Of a DNA stretch of 35,944 bases, positions 5,829 to 35,837 are shown in pieces; the first letter of the stretch is position 1; each line of letters starts with the position of its first letter. The notes beneath the pieces are model-generated. The model worked only from the letters and a program-made list of their open reading frames with translations. It ran no database searches and had not been told where the DNA came from. The stretch comes from a virus, in the IMG/VR virus record IMGVR_UViG_3300031963_000471, positions 1 through 35,944 of that record. One strand, given 5' to 3'. A program made the translations under genes and the position numbers.

Positions 5829-6271
5829 GCCATGGTGCGATAAATGGTTTTACCATTTGATTTTACAGCCCGTAAAACTTGCTTGCGGTTGCCCGAGCTT
5901 CGATAGCTTACGTGTACCCAATCCGGATTGGTATTATTGCCAAATTCCCAAATGAGTTGGTCGAAATCGCAATTGGTGCGTATGAAATTAAACAACTCAG
6001 CGTTGCTCATATTATTGGCACTATCAAGGTCAGCGCTTCGGCCACTCATGTGATCGCTGGTGGAGCTGCCACCTATCAATTTATTGAGGCGTGGGCATCG
6101 GTACCAACTGGTGATGATGTAGGCAATGCTTTCAGGAAGTTTGCATAGTACATTATCATACAGTGCTTTTGCGTTAGCAATCACTGTAGGCCCGGGTGTG
6201 AATTGTTCATTTATTTCCCTGCGAATAGCAGTATCTGATTTTGTAACTGTTGCGGTATCAAATTTTTTCAT
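5825..6271 (-). CDS. Endolysin, peptidase M15-like (D-Ala-D-Ala peptidase fold)
   Basis: A 148-aa protein matching the zinc peptidase M15 pattern seen in phage endolysins and VanY/DacA-like enzymes. It shows a SDHMSGRSADLD motif with His74 and Asp81 as metal ligands, and WVH at residues 118-120 supplying the third ligand. The YxCPxLN segment near residues 57-64 is also typical. Family members cleave peptide bonds in peptidoglycan stems or cross-links. There is no signal peptide, so release through a holin is expected; a two-helix holin candidate lies upstream at 9698-9955. The stop overlaps the spanin-like gene by 4 bases, forming a lysis pair. Length is normal for a single-domain M15 phage endolysin. 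Confidence 0.88.
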   Translation of the reverse strand: MKKFDTATVTKSDTAIRREINEQFTPGPTVIANAKALYDNVLCKLPESIAYIITSWYRCPRLNKLIGGSSTSDHMSGRSADLDSANNMSNAELFNFIRTNCDFDQLIWEFGNNTNPDWVHVSYRSSGNRKQVLRAVKSNGKTIYRTMA

Positions 6272-6279
6272 ATCTATAC

Positions 6280-6579
6280 TTAAGAGTTAATAGCACCTTC
6301 AGGGCTTATGGTTAAATAATCTGCTTTGCCTATGCTGATGCGGCCATCGATGTAAGTGATACGCGCCCAAAATGCCCAACGGCCTGGTATATCCAAAACA
6401 TTGGTTGACAAATCATAACTGATAACGCCCGGATTTTCATCCTCTACTACGGCAGTAAAGCTACCGCGTGTGCCATCGGGCTTGGTATATCGTATTTCAC
6501 AGGTTTGATAGCCGGTGATGTCAGCAGCCAGAGCAAGTGTAATTTTAAGTTTGGTTTGCCCGACAAATATTTTACTCAT
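6280..6579 (-). CDS. Small Ig-like or BppU-N-like phage structural protein
   Basis: A 99-aa all-beta protein containing KITLALAADITGYQTCEI and a KPDGTRGSFTA segment. This pattern is common in small phage proteins of the BppU N-terminal or Ig-like type that accompany tail fibres and baseplates. Hydrophobic residues alternate through the second half (WAFWARITYIDGRISIGKADYL). The gene overlaps the upstream repeat-protein gene by 4 bases and is 8 bases from the endolysin, so it belongs to the same transcript. A role as a small virion adaptor beside the repeat protein is inference; it could also be a fibre base. Confidence 0.6.
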   Translation of the reverse strand: MSKIFVGQTKLKITLALAADITGYQTCEIRYTKPDGTRGSFTAVVEDENPGVISYDLSTNVLDIPGRWAFWARITYIDGRISIGKADYLTISPEGAINS

Positions 6580-7430
6580 GGGTTAATTTTTGATTTTATG
6601 GTTAGTGAATGGGTAAGTTCGGACCGGGTGCGTAGCACAAATGATATAGGGCTATCTACATTAGATTCAGTGATAACCGGAGATTTTAGAAAAATGCCAA
6701 CCGTTGGCGCTATTGAACCAACTATTACTAAAGCTGAAAACGTATCGGCATAATCTGTAATGGATGCTGATAATAAAAATTCAGGAACTGTGCGCGATAA
6801 ACTGGCAGCGAACGTATCGGGATCATCGGTAATGGATGCTGATAGCGAAAATACAGGAACCGTACGTGATACATTGGCACTGAACGTATCGGCATCATCG
6901 GCAATGGATGCTGATACCGAAAATACAGGCACAGTGCGCGAAACATTTGCAGCGAACGTATCAGCGTTGTCGGTTATCGCTGCTGCTAGGGAATAATTAG
7001 GCAACGTGCGCGAAACATTGGCAGCGAACGTATCAGCTGAATCTGTAATGGCAGCTGATAAAGAAAAAACAGGCACAGTGCGCGAAACATTGGCCGCAAA
7101 CGTATCACCAGTATCGGTTATGCTTGCAGAAATGCTATATACAACTGCACCGTTTGATATGTCGGCCGCGAACGTGTCGGCAGTATCGGTAATGGATGCC
7201 GAAAGGGAATAAGAAGGTGCAACGCTCGATACATTAGCCGCAAACGTATCAGCTGCCTCAGTTATACTTGCAGAAATGCTGTATACAACTGCACCGTTTG
7301 TAATGTCGGCAGCAAACGTGTCGGCAGTATCGGTAATGGATGCGGTTATACTATACGATGAAGCAGGAAATACTATGGCTATCTGCCCGATTTCAATACT
7401 TGCACCGTCAAATAACCTACGTGTTGCCAT
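6576..7430 (-). CDS. Tandem-repeat virion-surface or fibre protein
   Basis: A 284-aa protein of which about 216 residues (about 26-241) are nine copies of a 24-residue unit. The core is SxSASITDTADTFAANVSR, ending in TVPV or NGAVV and starting the next unit with Y/F-S. The pattern ITxxADTFxA is common in phage tail and fibre proteins. Short non-repeated caps sit at both ends (MATRRLFDGASIEIGQ; a 43-residue C-terminal cap). Ser/Thr/Ala/Asp dominate, suggesting an extended beta-solenoid or stalk. It overlaps the downstream 99-aa gene by 4 bases. Function as an extensible surface fibre or host-binding stalk is inference. Repeat number could vary between relatives by recombination. Confidence 0.7.
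   Translation of the reverse strand: MATRRLFDGASIEIGQIAIVFPASSYSITASITDTADTFAADITNGAVVYSISASITEAADTFAANVSSVAPSYSLSASITDTADTFAADISNGAVVYSISASITDTGDTFAANVSRTVPVFSLSAAITDSADTFAANVSRTLPNYSLAAAITDNADTFAANVSRTVPVFSVSASIADDADTFSANVSRTVPVFSLSASITDDPDTFAASLSRTVPEFLLSASITDYADTFSALVIVGSIAPTVGIFLKSPVITESNVDSPISFVLRTRSELTHSLTIKSKINP
6708..7355. repeat. Nine tandem 72-bp coding repeats (24 aa each)
   Basis: In-frame degenerate tandem repeats inside the fibre-like gene. Each unit encodes a variant of SITDTADTFAANVSRTVPV with the same spacing. Units differ in the linker: either NGAVV or RTVP(V/N/E). The two linker types alternate at the N-terminal end (units 1 and 3 carry NGAVV), which suggests duplication of a two-unit block. 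The unit length is an exact multiple of three, so gain or loss keeps the frame. Confidence 0.85.
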
Positions 7431-14715: not shown

Positions 14716-16338
14716 TTATACCATACCCATAAACCTGTTGACTGACTCATCTATATCTTTCCGGAATTTTGAAAATAGTACAATGTCGAAACAATCAGTA
14801 ACGTGTGTAGCCTGCTCTTGTGGTATTATATCACTTCTCTCACTTCCTTTATCTTTCTTCAGTTCACCGGCTATCAACTTAATGGGGGTGTTATACAATG
14901 CTATCTTAGCGTTAGGACAGTTCTCTTCATTTATTCTTACCTTAGGCAAACGCGCATCTTGTTCGCTCAACATCAGGTTAATGAATTCATACTTATCTCT
15001 GTGTTGCGGGTTTTCATCGAAGCTCATTAGTCTTACAATCCATCTTTTCTCATAGAGGAGTCGCTCGACCAGTTCGGCATATGTTTCTTTACTGTTTGCC
15101 ACATTCGTATTCCCGTTGCGGTCGTAATACAGGTAAATAATACGCTCGGTGTGATGGGCGTAATATAAATCAAACTTATCAATAAGGTCATGAATAATGT
15201 CGGGTTGGATGGCAAAGAACTCATTCAGGATATTGTACCGGTGGTGTTGGTTATCTTCCTGGCATACGAGCATTGAATTAATTTTACCTCCCCAATCAAT
15301 TACTAAATCTAGCGGTTGATTGCTATTACAGTCTAAATCACCTATGGAGCTATCAGGCACTTGTATGTCTATTTTAGTGTTATCAAAATAACTGTAGTTA
15401 AAGTCGGTATAAAAATGATGCTTATTTAACTGCGGGTAAAACCTGCGGCCATGCTCCAAAGCTTCGGGTCTTTTATTGAGGATGGATGTTTCGAAGATAA
15501 AATCCGGCAGGTTTCTGCGTTGGGTTTTGATGTAATCAATACCCAACACATCAATATTATCGAAGCTGCTAGCTTCGAGGAAGTGAGTAAGGCCTTTGCG
15601 TAGGGCTTTTATTTTGTTATTGATGCTATTCATGTCCCACTCCAGTTGAGTGAATGTACGGGGCGATTTTGCCCGTTTCATGGCAGCATAGCAGTCTTGC
15701 AGTTTCAGTTGAAGTTGAATAATCAGCTCGTTGGTCTCAGGTTCGTTAAATTCTTCAGCATCGAGCAGCCATTTGGCTTCTGGGGTAGTTGGCATATCGG
15801 TAGTCCAGGTAATCATCCTGTATTGTGGCATATCCCGATATTGAGGCATACCGCGAAGGGTTGGCATAATGGATTCGAGCAAGTCTTCATAATCAAGAAG
15901 CTTAGCTTCATCACCATGAAGGGATTGAAGATTTAAACCGTTTGAGTCGTTTTTTCTGTCCTGGCTGCTCATGCTAATGATTGAACCGGTGAACCAATGT
16001 ATCACATTTTCCCAATCAGCAGGTGGTTCATCAGGCTCGGCAAACCTCAGTTTTTTATCAGCACGCCTCCCGATCACGAAGTGTAGGTCCTGAATGAAGC
16101 CTAGTTTTTTCCATCCTGAAACTGTGGCTGGAAGTGTGCGGGTTTTTATTTGCTTGTATGTTTTAGCAAGTAGGCCATTGTTTGACCTGGGCATTGATAT
16201 GCAACAGTCGGCCATACGTGGTGCAATAACACCGGTACTTTTACCTGTACCACGACCGGCAATACAATACAGTGTGGGCGCACCTATCAAAAATGCGCGC
16301 AGCTGCATTTTGTTGTAATGTAGGGTGCGCTCACTCAT
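14716..16338 (-). CDS. terL: Terminase large subunit (packaging ATPase/nuclease)
   Basis: A 540-aa protein with the full terminase layout. The Walker A motif is at residues 27-35 (AGRGTGKST). The Walker B acidic pair is at D143-E144 (SLHGDEAKL). A TTD motif at 179-181 may be the coupling motif. The C-terminal nuclease domain opens at LVIDWGG (D348), with further acidic residues downstream. Terminases cut the concatemer and pump DNA into the prohead through the portal. Two small genes upstream overlap in the manner of a packaging cassette. The distance to the portal is unusual because of the cargo island. The start at 16338 overlaps the upstream stop by 8 bases. Confidence 0.93.
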   Translation of the reverse strand: MSERTLHYNKMQLRAFLIGAPTLYCIAGRGTGKSTGVIAPRMADCCISMPRSNNGLLAKTYKQIKTRTLPATVSGWKKLGFIQDLHFVIGRRADKKLRFAEPDEPPADWENVIHWFTGSIISMSSQDRKNDSNGLNLQSLHGDEAKLLDYEDLLESIMPTLRGMPQYRDMPQYRMITWTTDMPTTPEAKWLLDAEEFNEPETNELIIQLQLKLQDCYAAMKRAKSPRTFTQLEWDMNSINNKIKALRKGLTHFLEASSFDNIDVLGIDYIKTQRRNLPDFIFETSILNKRPEALEHGRRFYPQLNKHHFYTDFNYSYFDNTKIDIQVPDSSIGDLDCNSNQPLDLVIDWGGKINSMLVCQEDNQHHRYNILNEFFAIQPDIIHDLIDKFDLYYAHHTERIIYLYYDRNGNTNVANSKETYAELVERLLYEKRWIVRLMSFDENPQHRDKYEFINLMLSEQDARLPKVRINEENCPNAKIALYNTPIKLIAGELKKDKGSERSDIIPQEQATHVTDCFDIVLFSKFRKDIDESVNRFMGMV

Positions 16339-24993: not shown

Positions 24994-25680
24994 TTAGTTA
25001 GTAGTAGCCTTAATAATATTGGCAATAGAAGAATTAGCTATATTAACAAAGTCATATCGGCCAATGCGCTGTACGCTTATCGTGTGATACACATTCTTCA
25101 TGCGGCTATATGTGCGCTCGCTAATCTCCAAAGCCCTTATAAAATCAGCCCTTGGCACCATACCCGGTGCAATGGCTACATGTGGCGTATCATGCGGGAC
25201 ATTTTTTGCATAAATTTTAATACCTTGTAAATCAATATTTTCACGCACACAATAGCGTTGCAATGCTTTTTTAATGGTTTGAAACGGCAAATCCTCTTCT
25301 GAGAAACCATAGTGCGCAGATAAATCTTGTACCATATCTTTAAAAGAAAACTTACGTTCCTCGCGATGGCTCCTGCGTATATTGGCTTCCAGTTCGGTTT
25401 CAAAACGGTCTTTAATATAACCTTCTACCAGGCAATTGAATACTACAGTATTTTGCCTAGTAAGCATCCAGCCTTTGGTGTGAAACACACGCTCAGGCAG
25501 CTCCAGCTTAATGCTGTGTGTGTACTCTGCCAGGCACACATCTTTATCGAGCCCTGCATTTTTACTAAATAAGGCATGCACAGCAGGTAGCAGGTATGGC
25601 TTTAGCTTGTGGCCTTCGGCAAAAAATTTAGCTACCCATGGCTTCACCGGTATAGGATCGGAATAGAAGTGGTGTTTCAT
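24994..25680 (-). CDS. Putative DNA-binding regulator next to a TGYGACA array
   Basis: A 228-aa protein. I chose the ATG at 25678-25680 (MKHHFYSDPIPVKPW) because the open frame upstream runs into the repeat region and has poor coding character. The C-terminal third contains a helix-turn-helix-like pattern (RADFIRALEISERTYSRMKN, then a basic wing ISVQRIGRYDFV). The middle is charged, and LSAHYGFSEEDLPFQTIKKAL resembles a second helical domain. No enzyme motif is seen. The gene is first in the late-direction transcript, 43 bases from the fibre gene, and the boxes of the array begin 45 bases upstream of its start. It may be a late-gene activator or an initiator that binds those boxes. Confidence 0.5.
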   Translation of the reverse strand: MKHHFYSDPIPVKPWVAKFFAEGHKLKPYLLPAVHALFSKNAGLDKDVCLAEYTHSIKLELPERVFHTKGWMLTRQNTVVFNCLVEGYIKDRFETELEANIRRSHREERKFSFKDMVQDLSAHYGFSEEDLPFQTIKKALQRYCVRENIDLQGIKIYAKNVPHDTPHVAIAPGMVPRADFIRALEISERTYSRMKNVYHTISVQRIGRYDFVNIANSSIANIIKATTN

Positions 25681-25724
25681 TTTTTCGATTTTGTGATACA
25701 AAAATGCAACAGAAGTACACACCA

Positions 25725-26035
25725 TGCGACACAATTTTTGCACACTGCAACACCCAAAAATATACAACTGAACTTTTGCTGTCACATCAGTCACACTGTT
25801 ACAAATCACTTTAACTCTTTCTTTATCAATTAAATAAAAATGTGACTAAATGTGACTGAAGGTGTGACACTAATGTGACTGAAAGTGACATAAAACGGCT
25901 AAATTTGTTCACTGTCACAATCTGTCACATCAATAGCAGCAAGGCTTTGAGGTCAATTTGTGACAGATGTGACACAAAACCACCTTGTGCCAATATTTTT
26001 ACCAAACCAAAAAAATGCGCTGAAAAACTGCGACT
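25725..26035. repeat. Array of about 13 TGYGAC-type boxes with helical phasing
   Basis: Non-coding DNA holding TGYGAC-type boxes. On the plus strand: TGCGACA 25725; TGTGACT 25841, 25851, 25874; TGTGACA 25863; AGTGACA 25884; TGTGACA 25959, 25968; TGCGACT 26029. In reverse orientation: TGTCACA 25780, AGTCACA near 25790, TGTCACA 25913, 25923. Within clusters the boxes recur every 9-12 bases, about one helical turn. The stretch 25681-26067 has no other gene. It precedes the putative regulator and late genes and resembles the TGYGACA boxes at the immunity switch. Candidate roles: operator array, late-promoter activator site or replication iterons. Confidence 0.8.
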
Positions 26036-26067
26036 ACTACTATTGCCACTTTTCGAAGCGTTAGCAT

Positions 26068-26098
26068 AAAAAATCGCCCCGGAAAATCCGAGGCGATT
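26068..26098 (-). terminator. Rho-independent terminator of the phosphoribosyltransferase gene
   Basis: On the minus strand an ATCGCC-containing stem of about 11 bp (one G-T pair) is followed by a T run. The hairpin overlaps the gene's stop codon. It isolates the early transcript from the box array and late genes. Confidence 0.85.
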
Positions 26099-26603
26099 AA
26101 CGGCAGCTTTTAGCCAAAGCCAAGCAAGTAACCGAAGCAGCACCGGCATCCAGCAGCATATCCGTAATGGCGGTAAATGTGGTACCTGTAGTGGTAACAT
26201 CATCTACCAGTAGTATGTGTTGGTTAGCCACCACATCGGCATTAATAGATATGCTGCATTTAAGTGCATCGGCATTGCGTGTATTGCTTCGGCAAAAGCT
26301 GGCTGTGCTGTGTGTTTTGCGAATGGCGTGTGTAGCATCGTGTAGCAGCGGGTGGCGTTTACCTACAGCCGATGCGATTTTTGTAATGGAATTAGTGCGG
26401 GTGCAGTCGCTAGATGGTACAGCCATAATAAGCGTATGATCGGTAATGTGCTGATAGCACCAATCCAGCAATTGGATGTAAAATAAATTAAGCGCTGGCC
26501 GTACACCGGCTTTAAAGGTGCGTAGCTGAAAGCTAGGAGCGTGCGTATTATCAATATGCATGGGGTAATATCTGTTCAGGTAATTGTATGTGTTGATGTG
26601 CAT
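26097..26603 (-). CDS. ComF-like phosphoribosyltransferase
   Basis: A 168-aa protein ending in a classic PRPP-binding loop (about residues 130-143, ILLVDDVTTTGTTF, with D134-D135) and helical TAITDMLLDAGAASV. The centre (SFCRSNTRNADALKCS) matches the R/N-rich region before the PRTase motif in ComF-type proteins. The zinc-finger N-terminus of full ComF (usually about 230 aa) is absent. Such enzymes bind phosphoribosyl pyrophosphate; ComF helps DNA uptake in naturally competent bacteria, but phage members have no proven role. It is bounded by terminators on both sides, so it forms a one-gene unit. Possible roles are nucleotide salvage, DNA handling or host modulation. Confidence 0.75.
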   Translation of the reverse strand: MHINTYNYLNRYYPMHIDNTHAPSFQLRTFKAGVRPALNLFYIQLLDWCYQHITDHTLIMAVPSSDCTRTNSITKIASAVGKRHPLLHDATHAIRKTHSTASFCRSNTRNADALKCSISINADVVANQHILLVDDVTTTGTTFTAITDMLLDAGAASVTCLALAKSCR

Positions 26604-28255: not shown

Positions 28256-30736
28256 TTAAAAGGGTAAATCATCACGTTTGGGTTGAAACAAATCCGGCTC
28301 GTTGTTATCCATTATTTCATTAGCCCGCGCCATTTCGGCATCTACATCAAGGCTAGCTATTTCTTCAGCTGTTAAAAAGTCGGTACGTTTAAATACATAC
28401 GGCCTGCCGTTGCAGCTCACGTCCACACGTTTTACTTCGGTTTTGCCCTCGGCCACATGCACACGTGCCCAGGTGGGGTAGCTGTAGCGTTTGGTTTTAT
28501 ACTTCTTCTTCAGCTGCTGAAGCTGCTCCATGGTAAACTCCGTTTGGCCAAGCATAGCAAGTGCATGCTGTTTCGATTTGTATTCAGCTTCACCAATAGT
28601 AATGAAGTGATAGGTATCCACCTTTAGCCTATCGCGCAGCACGGTTTCGATGTAGTTATCCTCGAAGCGTTTCAACTCAAACTGCTCTTTGATGTTGCCC
28701 AGGCTCATGTAAATTTCTTCAGGACCAAAGTCCATAAACATGGCGCGTACTTTTTGGCGCAGCTCTTTCTCAATAGTTGGTTTGCTGAATTCTATTACTT
28801 TCTTCAACGCTTCGGTTTTTATCAATTCAGGATCAAACCAAGCGCGATGGCGGTTAGGTACTTTTATTTGGCGGGTATTTAGGAAGTGAAGAAATGCCGG
28901 TATTTCATCTTGCATTTTTTGCAGCATGTTTACGTCCAGGTGCTCTTGTGTAAGTTTAGGTACTTTGCGAATCCAATAGCGCACATCATCATCGCTGGCG
29001 TATATGAAATTGTCTTCGTTGTTGGTAAAGAACAGGAACTTGCCAAAGAAGTCAATCTCCACATGATCCTTGCCTTTTGCGTTCATGAAAATTTTATCGG
29101 TGGTGGATAGCGCTTTTACTTTCTCTACCACTACCTGCTTATCAATCTTCGCCTCATCGCAAATTACCAGCAGCTTGCTTGCCCAACTGGCGTTAAAGTT
29201 GTCGCTGAGCTCTGCATTGCCTACTACGGCAGCATTTTGGGTAAATATGAGTTTTAGCAATTTGCCTAGGGTACTTTTACCTGTACCGTTTTCGCGACTT
29301 ACCAAACACAGAATCGGCAATATTTGAGTAGGGCGTTTGTATAACAAGGTGAGGTAATCAAGCCCAAGTTCCATTTCATTAAATACGTTTTTTTCTTTCG
29401 TTTTTGGGTCAGTCCAGTTCATATCGGCAGTGCCAAAAATGTGCGCCAAAAATTTGCGAATCGTTTCCCATTCGCCTTCTTCAGGCTCGTGTTCAAATGG
29501 AGCGTACATATTGAAACACCCATTTATCACCGGTTGGTAATCGATGTGATTGGGCACATTGCAAAAAGCCTGGTACTTGGGTATGTGCTTAAAAATGTTT
29601 TTGCCGTGATCATCGCCTATGGTGCCTTTCATCCTGCGGTGAAATGTTTTTTCAATCTCACCGTATTTGTTAGGGATATGTACAAAAGCATGGTATTGAT
29701 CGCCCACACGGAAGTAATTATTAGCCTCACCTGGTATTACAACCTCGCACGTATTTTTATCCTCGTTCCATTTGTAGCGCGTGCCGTTAAATACAAACTC
29801 CTTACTCAGTATCTCCTTGCGCTTTTCGCTGTGATACAGCACGAAATTATCTACGTTATCAAGTAAAAAATGGCGGTGCAGGTTGGCAATATTAAACGTA
29901 ATGTCGAGGCGAAAAAAGGAAGTAGGTTTACGGCTCAGGTTTAACAAATCATCCACTATACGCACCTCATCACCGGGCACAGTTACCAGCAAGTCGTCAA
30001 TGCCTTTGGGGTTATCGGGCAGCTCATCAGCTAGCTGATAGGCTGCGTAGCGTTTTACATCGTATTCATCCAGTAGGTCTTTAAAGGTATTGCAGGTTTG
30101 AAAGAAACCCCGCGGACGTTTGTACAAGTCAATTCCATCTTCCAACTCTTTACTAGTGATGTTGCGGCAATCGCCATCCATCAACCAAATCACGTTTTCA
30201 ACTTCGCATGTCAAAATCAGGCGTTTGATATCATCGTGCAAGTTGCCTGTGTTTTTATCTTTCATGTGCGTGATGGAGCTGAGGCCCACACATGGCATAC
30301 CGTGCATGGCAGCCTTAAATGCCTTGAAATAACCTTCGGTAATTACCAGCGTTTTCAGTTTGGTATGGCTGCGAAACGCATCAACCAACAAGGGCGGAAA
30401 AAATGGTTGCGTTGGCTGATCCTTAGGCAACAGGTATTTTATGGTATCGCCTTTTTTGCTTTTAACCGGATGCTCCAGGCGGGTGATGCAAAATTCATTG
30501 TGCTTCCATCGGCTGCCCTCTTTGGCGTAGCGAATTTTAAGGCCATCCACGGTGTAAACTAATATGTCAATGCCGCGTTCAGTTTCGCGAAATATGCGTG
30601 TAGGTACCAATATATCCGGTTTACCTACGCCACCGTTTTCGGCCAGCATCACCTGATTCATTTCATCGGTAACGCCAAGCTCCTGCATGCGCTTAGCAAA
30701 ATAGCTTAGTTCAGGAATTTGAATCTGTTCGCTCAT
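28256..30736 (-). CDS. Toprim/SF3-D5 replication protein (primase-helicase type)
   Basis: An 826-aa replication protein with a start at 30734-30736 (MSEQIQIPELSYFAKRMQEL) that overlaps the stop of the 66-aa gene by 4 bases. Residues about 128-195 form a Toprim-like fold: VITEGYFKAF with E134, and VIWLMDGD with D187 and D189. From about 440 the C-terminal AAA+/SF3 module has Walker A (ENGTGKST, 482-489), Walker B CDEAK (526-530) and a sensor FFTNNED, followed by DDDVRYWIRK, as in D5/P4-type viral helicases. Such proteins open the replication origin and start DNA synthesis. Full primase activity cannot be confirmed from the visible motifs. No polymerase is present in the window. Confidence 0.85.
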   Translation of the reverse strand: MSEQIQIPELSYFAKRMQELGVTDEMNQVMLAENGGVGKPDILVPTRIFRETERGIDILVYTVDGLKIRYAKEGSRWKHNEFCITRLEHPVKSKKGDTIKYLLPKDQPTQPFFPPLLVDAFRSHTKLKTLVITEGYFKAFKAAMHGMPCVGLSSITHMKDKNTGNLHDDIKRLILTCEVENVIWLMDGDCRNITSKELEDGIDLYKRPRGFFQTCNTFKDLLDEYDVKRYAAYQLADELPDNPKGIDDLLVTVPGDEVRIVDDLLNLSRKPTSFFRLDITFNIANLHRHFLLDNVDNFVLYHSEKRKEILSKEFVFNGTRYKWNEDKNTCEVVIPGEANNYFRVGDQYHAFVHIPNKYGEIEKTFHRRMKGTIGDDHGKNIFKHIPKYQAFCNVPNHIDYQPVINGCFNMYAPFEHEPEEGEWETIRKFLAHIFGTADMNWTDPKTKEKNVFNEMELGLDYLTLLYKRPTQILPILCLVSRENGTGKSTLGKLLKLIFTQNAAVVGNAELSDNFNASWASKLLVICDEAKIDKQVVVEKVKALSTTDKIFMNAKGKDHVEIDFFGKFLFFTNNEDNFIYASDDDVRYWIRKVPKLTQEHLDVNMLQKMQDEIPAFLHFLNTRQIKVPNRHRAWFDPELIKTEALKKVIEFSKPTIEKELRQKVRAMFMDFGPEEIYMSLGNIKEQFELKRFEDNYIETVLRDRLKVDTYHFITIGEAEYKSKQHALAMLGQTEFTMEQLQQLKKKYKTKRYSYPTWARVHVAEGKTEVKRVDVSCNGRPYVFKRTDFLTAEEIASLDVDAEMARANEIMDNNEPDLFQPKRDDLPF

Positions 30737-34691: not shown

Positions 34692-34856
34692 TCAGAAGTT
34701 TTTAAAGTAATCACGTGATTGGCGGTTACTGGCCGCTTTATTTCTACGCTGTGTACGCACTTCGGTAATAAAGCGATGGCTAATGCCAACCATAATGCTG
34801 GCAATGAGTACGAACAATAGAGCAGTGAATGGATCTGCAGTAAGTGCTTGAATCAT
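34692..34856 (-). CDS. Small single-helix membrane protein, 54 aa
   Basis: A 54-aa protein with one hydrophobic segment (about residues 10-26, FTALLFVLIASIMVGIS) followed by a strongly basic tail (HRFITEVRTQRRNKAASN). Its start overlaps the Cro-like stop as ATGA, a strong sign of coupling. Such early membrane proteins may alter the host membrane, for instance to exclude other phages. Function unknown. Confidence 0.6.
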   Translation of the reverse strand: MIQALTADPFTALLFVLIASIMVGISHRFITEVRTQRRNKAASNRQSRDYFKNF

Positions 34857-35128
34857 TTTACTAAGTGTTTAACAGGTGTAACATGTGCGACATTTTGTTT
34901 GTAGAAATCTGTAAGCCCAAGTGTCGCATCATACTTAGCTAGATGTGTCATTATACGCAACACATTGGGCTGAGTTGGTTGGCTGGTATTAAGCAGCCAA
35001 CGTCTTACAGTAAGGTTTTCTACCTCACATACAGAGGCTAGCTCATCAGTTAATTGCTTAACCAGTTCGGGGTTTTCGGCTTTCACGGCTATGTTAAATA
35101 GCATTAGTTTTAGTCTGTTTTGTATCAT
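34853..35128 (-). CDS. Cro-like HTH regulator
   Basis: A 91-aa protein with a helix-turn-helix pattern (about residues 28-50, ELASVCEVENLTVRRWLLNT), first gene of the leftward early transcript and divergent from the CI-like gene. I prefer the ATG at 35126-35128; a GTG three codons earlier is possible. A role as Cro in the lysis-lysogeny switch is typical for such a position. A box TGCGACA (35130-35136) overlaps its start region, so it or the repressor may regulate it. Two further boxes lie in its coding region near 34886 and 34922. Confidence 0.65.
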   Translation of the reverse strand: MIQNRLKLMLFNIAVKAENPELVKQLTDELASVCEVENLTVRRWLLNTSQPTQPNVLRIMTHLAKYDATLGLTDFYKQNVAHVTPVKHLVK

Positions 35129-35129
35129 T

Positions 35130-35200
35130 TGCGACACATTTTGTATTTAATGCGACAAATATTGTTACATTTGTGACAAGTTGATACACTCAAAGTCGCA
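35130..35200. promoter_or_regulatory. Immunity-switch operator with TGYGACA boxes at 21-bp steps
   Basis: The intergenic region between the Cro-like (-) and CI-like (+) genes has boxes TGCGACA 35130-35136, TGCGACA 35151-35157 and TGTGACA 35172-35178, exactly 21 bases apart (two helical turns), plus the reversed copy GTCGCA at 35195-35200. Possible promoter elements for both directions overlap them, but no -33/-7 pair has good spacing. The boxes resemble those in the array at 25.7-26.0 kb. Confidence 0.75.
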
Positions 35201-35234
35201 TATTTTTTCCACACATCGTGTCTCATTTGTGGAC

Positions 35235-35672
35235 ATGAATGCAACACGTAGTAAAACAGAGGATTTTAAAATCCATCGTGGTGAGATTGTACGCACCGTT
35301 GTGGATAAATTAGGTTTTGAGATAGCCGATTTAGCCCGAAAAATAAACGTAAGCCGAGCCACATTGTACCGTCAGTTTGATCGTGCAGACATGGATTGGC
35401 ACTACATTAATAATATAGGCCGACTATTACATCACGATTTCAGCAATGAAATACCGGAGTTAAAACTTCGGGATTTTGATAACGTAGCGCTAGAACAAGC
35501 ATCGGGGTATAAACCAGAAGATACACTACTGGACCGTGCGATAAAAGAGATTGACAAATGGAAAACCGAAGCGTACATCAATCTACAGGAGACCAATAAG
35601 TGGCGTGAAAAATATTATGAATTATTAGAGCAAACCCTACAGAATCAAGTAGGGGGCAGCAAGGGGCAGTAA
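35235..35672 (+). CDS. CI-like repressor with HTH and coiled coil
   Basis: A 145-aa protein starting at the ATG at 35235. A helix-turn-helix lies at about residues 29-52 (EIADLARKINVSRATLYRQF). The C-terminal part (about 96-138) is a coiled coil (LLDRAIKEIDKWK, NKWREKYYELLEQ) for oligomerisation. There is no LexA/CI-type Ser-Lys autoproteolytic domain, so induction must differ from lambda's. It is divergent from the Cro-like gene, next to the attachment site and integrase, as in many temperate phages. It is the likely immunity repressor and may bind the TGYGACA boxes; this binding is inferred, not shown. Confidence 0.75.
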   Translation: MNATRSKTEDFKIHRGEIVRTVVDKLGFEIADLARKINVSRATLYRQFDRADMDWHYINNIGRLLHHDFSNEIPELKLRDFDNVALEQASGYKPEDTLLDRAIKEIDKWKTEAYINLQETNKWREKYYELLEQTLQNQVGGSKGQ

Positions 35673-35721
35673 AACTCACAAAAATCTATGCAAAAACGTA
35701 GTAAATACGTGGGTAGTACAC

Positions 35722-35747
35722 AGGTTCAAATCCTGCCACCCCGACTT
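35722..35747 (+). other. Attachment core identical to a tRNA 3' end (probably tRNA-Pro)
   Basis: The segment CAGGTTCAAATCCTGCCACC followed by CCGAC contains a T-arm (GGTTCAAATCC) and an acceptor end CACCCCG plus discriminator A, matching the CGGGGTG acceptor start typical of tRNA-Pro. No tRNA body lies upstream, so it is only the 3' end, as in attP or an attL/attR junction. Phage genes on both sides favour attP. Confidence 0.7.
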
Positions 35748-35751
35748 AAAA

Positions 35752-35785
35752 AACTGCCCGCAAACACTGAGTTTGTCGGGCAGTT
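35752..35785 (+). terminator. Terminator between attachment core and integrase
   Basis: AACTGCCCG-CAAAC and GTTTG-T-CGGGCAGTT form a 14-bp stem with one bulge and an ACTGA loop. T-rich sequence follows on the plus strand; on the minus strand the stem is followed by TTTTTAAG. It may therefore act in either direction. Confidence 0.7.
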
Positions 35786-35837
35786 TCAATTTAAAAATAA
35801 TGCAGGGGGCAGTGCATGGGGCAGTGCCCCCAAATTA

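Follow-up and report, generated by a model that had tools for sequence, protein, structure and literature searches.

A two-armed array of 7-bp boxes around an AT-rich core as a likely iteron replication origin of a temperate tailed phage

Introduction

Satellite phage P4 (NC_001609) has annotated 'ori type 1 repeats', which are TGTTCACC sequences in 9–11 bp steps. One set lies in crr, directly 3′ of the gene for the alpha primase, and ori1, which belongs to the early regulatory region, carries another. Rep of the Staphylococcus aureus pathogenicity islands (SaPIs) recognises such iterons through its C-terminal domain, and the same has been demonstrated for Cch2 of the staphylococcal cassette chromosome mec (SCCmec), a protein with a Primase_Cterm/D5-type helicase whose C-terminal domain binds short repeats downstream of its own gene (PMC7581432). 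Here, we describe an array of 7-bp boxes in the virus record IMGVR_UViG_3300031963_000471 (35,944 bases, analysed at full length and termed the window), in which the recognised late genes all point left. The array is likely to be an iteron replication origin, of the P4-alpha/SaPI-Rep kind, of a temperate tailed phage. The host of this phage, judged by promoter type and gene content, is probably a member of the Bacteroidota.

Boxes of other sequence are found directly 3′ of a DUF927 helicase gene: AGTTCCC in PT1028 (SaPI-like by gene content), TGTTCCC in phiAH14b and eleven TTGGTTC boxes in Klebsiella phage P12620-1. The iterons of the F plasmid have the core TGTGACA. They form units of ~19 bp and are read by RepE, a Rep protein with two winged helices that has neither a helicase nor a primase domain; initiators of that type bind their own operator as well.

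Results

The preliminary description of the window, made from its letters alone, reported a cluster of TGYGACA-like boxes at 25725–26035 in a non-coding stretch of about 390 bases. Occurrences of TGYGACW were counted on both strands and compared with shuffled sequence. Twelve of the 20 occurrences in the window fall within 25725–26035. The total is not raised (16.8 expected) and the enrichment is purely local: the densest 311-bp stretch holds 12 boxes, against a maximum of 4 in 1000 dinucleotide shuffles of the whole window, and shuffling of the 385-bp region by itself gave a mean of 0.56 and a maximum of 4. Chance was rejected as the origin of the cluster because the shuffles never approached 12 boxes. 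The cluster and its local density are thereby confirmed, and so is its phasing, with start-to-start steps of 9, 10, 10, 10, 11 and 12 bases within clusters, about one helical turn. The region is non-coding as reported (flanking open reading frames at 24994–25680 and 26097–26603); its length is 311–331 bp, not about 390. By inspection, a terminator-like hairpin lies at ~26065–26095, with the array downstream of it.

A consensus derived from relatives (see below), [TA]GTYRCA, fits the boxes better than TGYGACW. Across the whole window, it gives exactly two clusters with at least five boxes per 330 bp, of which the array is one. An Rfam scan of 25600–26200 matched no RNA family, and a structured-RNA reading of the array was dropped on this ground. 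A full-text literature search for TGTTACA/TGTAACA returned unrelated matches only. The array and its parts are as follows.

25705–26035, both orientations: iteron array of 15 [TA]GTYRCA boxes (12 of them TGYGACW; two TGTTGCA and one TGTTACA included) in steps of 9–12 bp; proposed replication origin
25780–25803, plus strand: arm 1, with TGTCACA (25780), AGTCACA (25789) and TGTTACA (25797)
25804–25840: AT-rich core, ~84% A+T, AATCACTTTAACTCTTTCTTTATCAATTAAATAAAAA, between the facing box sets; proposed DNA unwinding element
25841–25880, minus strand: arm 2, four boxes (25841, 25851, 25863, 25874) in the orientation opposite to arm 1
25913–25929, plus strand: outer doublet, two boxes with a 10-bp step
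25959–25974, minus strand: outer doublet, two boxes with a 9-bp step

The proteins of the window considered as readers of these boxes include the following two.

28256–30736, minus strand: primase-helicase (DUF5906) with a TOPRIM-like N-terminal part, a superfamily 3 (SF3)/D5-like helicase and a C-terminal part, start codon by inspection; proposed reader
24994–25680, minus strand: 228-aa protein with a helix-turn-helix (HTH)-like C-terminal part, whose gene heads the late operon and lies ~45 bp from the array; unlikely reader

The primase-helicase matches DUF5906 (E 1.7e-22), as does P4 alpha; its match to TIGR01613 is below the family cut-off only. The predicted structure, with a mean pLDDT (predicted local distance difference test) of 74, contains the TOPRIM-like region and the helicase, and Foldseek matches of the model were the NrS-1 helicase (E 3e-12), poxvirus D5/E5 and the SaPI5 primase-helicase 7ola. 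The window primase is related to P4 alpha and to SaPI5 Rep. Its C-terminal region (residues ~660–790) was modelled as mixed helix and strand; covariation of a recognition helix in this region was not readable from ten sequences.

Relatives were gathered by protein sequence alone, without reference to the boxes. The 228-aa protein as query found one relative, L003, at 45% identity. Alignments of the window and L003 returned L003 only, the whole primase returned no relatives, and the CI-like protein of the immunity region none in viral contigs. The helicase segment of the primase was required as query and gave ten loci, one in the L003 contig and nine in new contigs. One locus (L014) is cut within the primase gene, and nine relatives have sequence beyond it. 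When these were scanned for the densest 6-mer, with no motif given in advance, the top cluster lay 3′ of the primase gene in all nine. The top 6-mer was GTAACA (box TGTTACA) in eight relatives and GCAACA (box TGTTGCA) in L003; these and the TGTCACA of the window are all TGTYRCA. The array begins at the primase stop codon in eight of the nine. A doublet lies directly 3′ of the stop codon in L006, L007, L008 and L011, with the main array ~150 bp further; for L009, L010, L012 and L013, the start of the array coincides with the stop codon or falls just around it. The array is conserved beside one primase family: spacing was checked in these related phages, and the plan of the box array is kept in all nine as the motif drifts. 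The putative initiators that go with the drifting iterons (TGTTACA, TGTTGCA, TGTCACA) are still 50–73% identical.

The layout was compared between the window and two relatives, each read in the direction of transcription. The window has four to five direct boxes, the core (25840 down to 25804) and then inverted TGTAACAg-TGTGACtga-TGTGACA. L003 has direct TGTTGCA boxes, an AT-rich core and then TGTAACAg-TGTGACaga-TGCAACA, and L006 has six direct TGTTACA boxes, an AT-rich core and then TGTAACAG. All three have direct boxes, inverted boxes starting TGTAACAG and, in the AT-rich core, a TTTA..TTGAT-like stretch. Arm 1 agrees box for box with the L003 arm TGTAACAgTGTGACagaTGCAACA, and the core of the window resembles those of L003 and L006 when the sequences are set side by side. 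The box varies by single transitions (TGTTACA, TGTCACA, TGTTGCA, TGTCGCA) and the plan is constant. Beside arm 2, at ~25886, a one-base variant, AGTGACA, was seen by inspection.

Several other features adjoin these arrays. TAGTAG(TAG) runs occur upstream of the array at 26025–26045 (minus strand) in the window and at L006 ~3209, L007 ~5749, L011 ~8522 and L003 ~9001; in three loci they follow a G run. They recall DnaA-trios and may be due to chance. An GGGGTAGTAG element upstream of several arrays, similar to a cos site or a DnaA-trio, was given no weight because GTAGTAG is frequent in these genomes. Between its array and the primase region, the window has a phosphoribosyltransferase-like gene (26097–26603). 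In L007, a small protein with DnaA domain IV (Bac_DnaA_C) is encoded immediately after the boxes, at 6133–6558. Diversity-generating-retroelement-like cassettes, consisting of a reverse transcriptase and repeated '..VGSRLCFK..' proteins, adjoin the replication module at L003:6409–8769, L011:3535–5888 and L010 near 4524.

The second cluster lies around the divergent early/repressor region, with the following features.

34877–35200: second cluster, eight [TA]GTYRCA boxes, mostly TGTCGCA
35140–35173, plus strand: Bacteroidota-type promoter-like sequence, TTTG-N22-TAnnTTTG, for the CI-like gene; boxes overlap it
35235–35672, plus strand: CI-like HTH protein of 145 aa, counted from this ATG, for which all HTH matches were weak
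34853–35137, minus strand: small Cro-like protein whose gene opens the early operon, weak match only

The preliminary description also placed the motif at the immunity switch, and this was borne out. TGYGACA is found five times in 34853–35225 against 0.22 expected, a count reached in none of 2000 shuffles, and three boxes are spaced exactly 21 bp apart. The CG form (TGTCGCA/AGTCGCA) makes up six of the eight boxes here and two of the 15 in the array (one-sided Fisher p ~0.006, calculated by hand). In view of this excess, another protein may read the second cluster, or its boxes may form a different affinity class. The cluster could represent either repressor operators or a second initiator site comparable to P4 ori1. 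Because P4 has a second iteron set in its early regulatory region, it is possible that one protein serves the array and the immunity switch, as had been suggested. In L013, the sole relative with the repressor region present, there is no box cluster in that region.

A search of viral contigs for GTAACA repeated three times in 9-bp steps gave at least 120 phage stretches in more than 100 contigs; one or a few are expected, assuming a collection of ~1e11 bases (our own estimate). The step-length statistics of these DNA-selected loci are biased because the search pattern itself required 9-bp steps, and spacing was taken from the primase-selected relatives only. Among the matches listed, no more than 500 bp separate the array from the 3′ end of the gene in 11 of 11 loci of a DUF927 cluster and in five of five loci of a VapE cluster.

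Elsewhere in the window, GGGGCAGT repeats flank a tRNA-3′-end-like sequence at 35643–35825 (by inspection), where ARAGORN found no whole tRNA; this is probably an attachment site that includes arm sites for an integrase. A gene for such an enzyme was not recognised in the window. A 284-aa late protein (6576–7430) consists of repeated units of ~31 residues (SASITDTADTFAANVS...).

Discussion

Of the options raised in the preliminary description, a site for an origin initiator is well supported by the comparison with relatives, P4 and SaPIs; a cooperative protein filament is not supported. The window primase carries the D5-like SF3 helicase that characterises initiators of P4-alpha/SaPI-Rep replicons, and the array has the short iterons (7–8 bp, steps ~9–12 bp) of such origins, with opposed arms at 25780–25803 and 25841–25880 flanking 25804–25840. 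We infer that the primase-helicase would bind the 7-bp iterons, probably through its C-terminal domain. The iteron sets that face each other across the core could load two hexamers, the AT-rich core would melt, and the primase-helicase may then both unwind and prime.

Several observations weigh against an origin read by this protein. The array of the window lies 2.2 kb past the primase stop codon, still downstream, with other genes between; other genes also part the two by 3.3 kb in L003, and in both genomes the array abuts the 228-aa gene rather than the primase. The C-terminal domains of primases that accompany TGTTACA differ considerably. No array was found beside the gene in the remote DUF5906/DUF927 relatives MT835542 and MT835519, and cumulative GC skew showed no clean inflection at the array. 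In a phage group called marine from the hosts of its named relatives, the array lies less than 500 bp upstream of a Terminase_2 (small subunit) gene in at least 22 loci (22 of 25 among the matches listed), and DUF5906, DnaB_C, VapE and DUF927 were not found in the marine records searched per family, mostly short fragments. Loci of this group (including L019, L022, L028, L040, L043, L046, L074 and L089) have triple GTGTAACA boxes, which an AT-rich spacer sets apart from inverted ones.

The marine loci are the ground for reading the boxes as a packaging site, bound by the small terminase subunit in a cosB- or pac-like manner where the replication module meets the late module. In the window, however, the array is not adjacent to a small terminase gene: the large terminase gene (14716–16338) is ~9 kb away, and the small subunit, presumed to lie beside it, was not identified by profile. 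Moreover, in the phage group of the window the array accompanies the primase, with recognised terminase genes far off, and the AT-rich core between facing arms matches the origins of P4 and SaPIs. A packaging site is quite improbable. The place of the array in the leader of the late operon, so close to the 228-aa gene, would instead suit operators for a late activator or repressor (the 228-aa, CI-like or Cro-like protein), and the overlap of similar boxes with the CI-like promoter is consistent with this. The late-activator option of the preliminary description lost ground because the array is at the primase 3′ end in eight of nine relatives and the homologue of the late-head gene, where found in these, is 0.45–7.5 kb away from it and, in L012, encoded on the opposite strand. 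The 228-aa family is conserved, but its HTH-like C-terminal part is present in the window and L003 only, and the protein gave a weak structure model with no convincing structural match. Since relatives with full arrays have homologues without the HTH-like part, the earlier proposal of this protein as reader finds no support, and late activation by it was rejected as the principal explanation. The CI-like protein has no relatives in viral contigs, and the repressor region of L013 is devoid of boxes. Late-operon control from the array is very improbable.

Both functions could also be combined, with occupancy of the origin gating a late promoter and coupling late transcription to replication; this extends the origin reading, and the two probabilities overlap. 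In both the window and L003, the proposed origin has the early genes on one side and the late-head gene on the other, and a late promoter may thus sit in or beside the array. However, a strict scan of the minus strand for TTTG-N17-23-TAnnTTTG found no Bacteroidota-type promoter, and the gene layout of these two genomes is not common to the other relatives. The combined role is unlikely.

A single initiator for both clusters, with the primase-helicase reading the boxes of the origin and those of the repressor/early-promoter region alike, is rather unlikely. If this were the case, origin binding would be tied to the lysis-lysogeny decision, the iteron type would define a replication-immunity group, and TGTTACA-type boxes would be a widespread recognition code of several helicase families, and possibly of terminases. 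The layout is found in tailed-phage genomes beside at least three helicase families (DUF5906, DUF927, VapE). The boxes would offer a simple sequence route to phage origins, with initiators that can be paired with iteron types, and the relatives would let the drift in iteron specificity (TGTTACA, TGTTGCA, TGTCACA) be tested between related initiators.

Comparison with known origins

The array resembles the P4 origin in its short iterons in both orientations around AT-rich DNA, present as two sets with comparable steps, and alpha, like the window protein, has the DUF5906/D5 helicase together with a TOPRIM-type primase part. The two differ in the iteron (TGTTCACC in P4, TGTYRCA in the window) and in the element, P4 being a satellite and the window a tailed phage. 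Alpha also gives matches to Zn_Ribbon_Prim, D5_N and Pox_D5, none of which is given by the window primase, and the second cluster of the window has other box subtypes and is not known to bind the initiator. The origins of SaPIs and phage-inducible chromosomal islands (PICIs) (PMC6092414, PMC7581432) are linked to the window by the structural match to the SaPI5 primase-helicase. They differ from it in that the array of the window is 2.2 kb from the primase stop codon. In PT1028 the iteron is AGTTCCC and the helicase is DUF927. SaPIs and PICIs are islands, and the window represents a temperate tailed phage. SCCmec, a staphylococcal cassette, shares with the window a D5-type helicase protein and has only three AAGTG iterons. 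The preliminary description knew of no described phage system with this arrangement; the arrangement is nevertheless that of P4 ori1/crr and of the SaPI/PICI origins.
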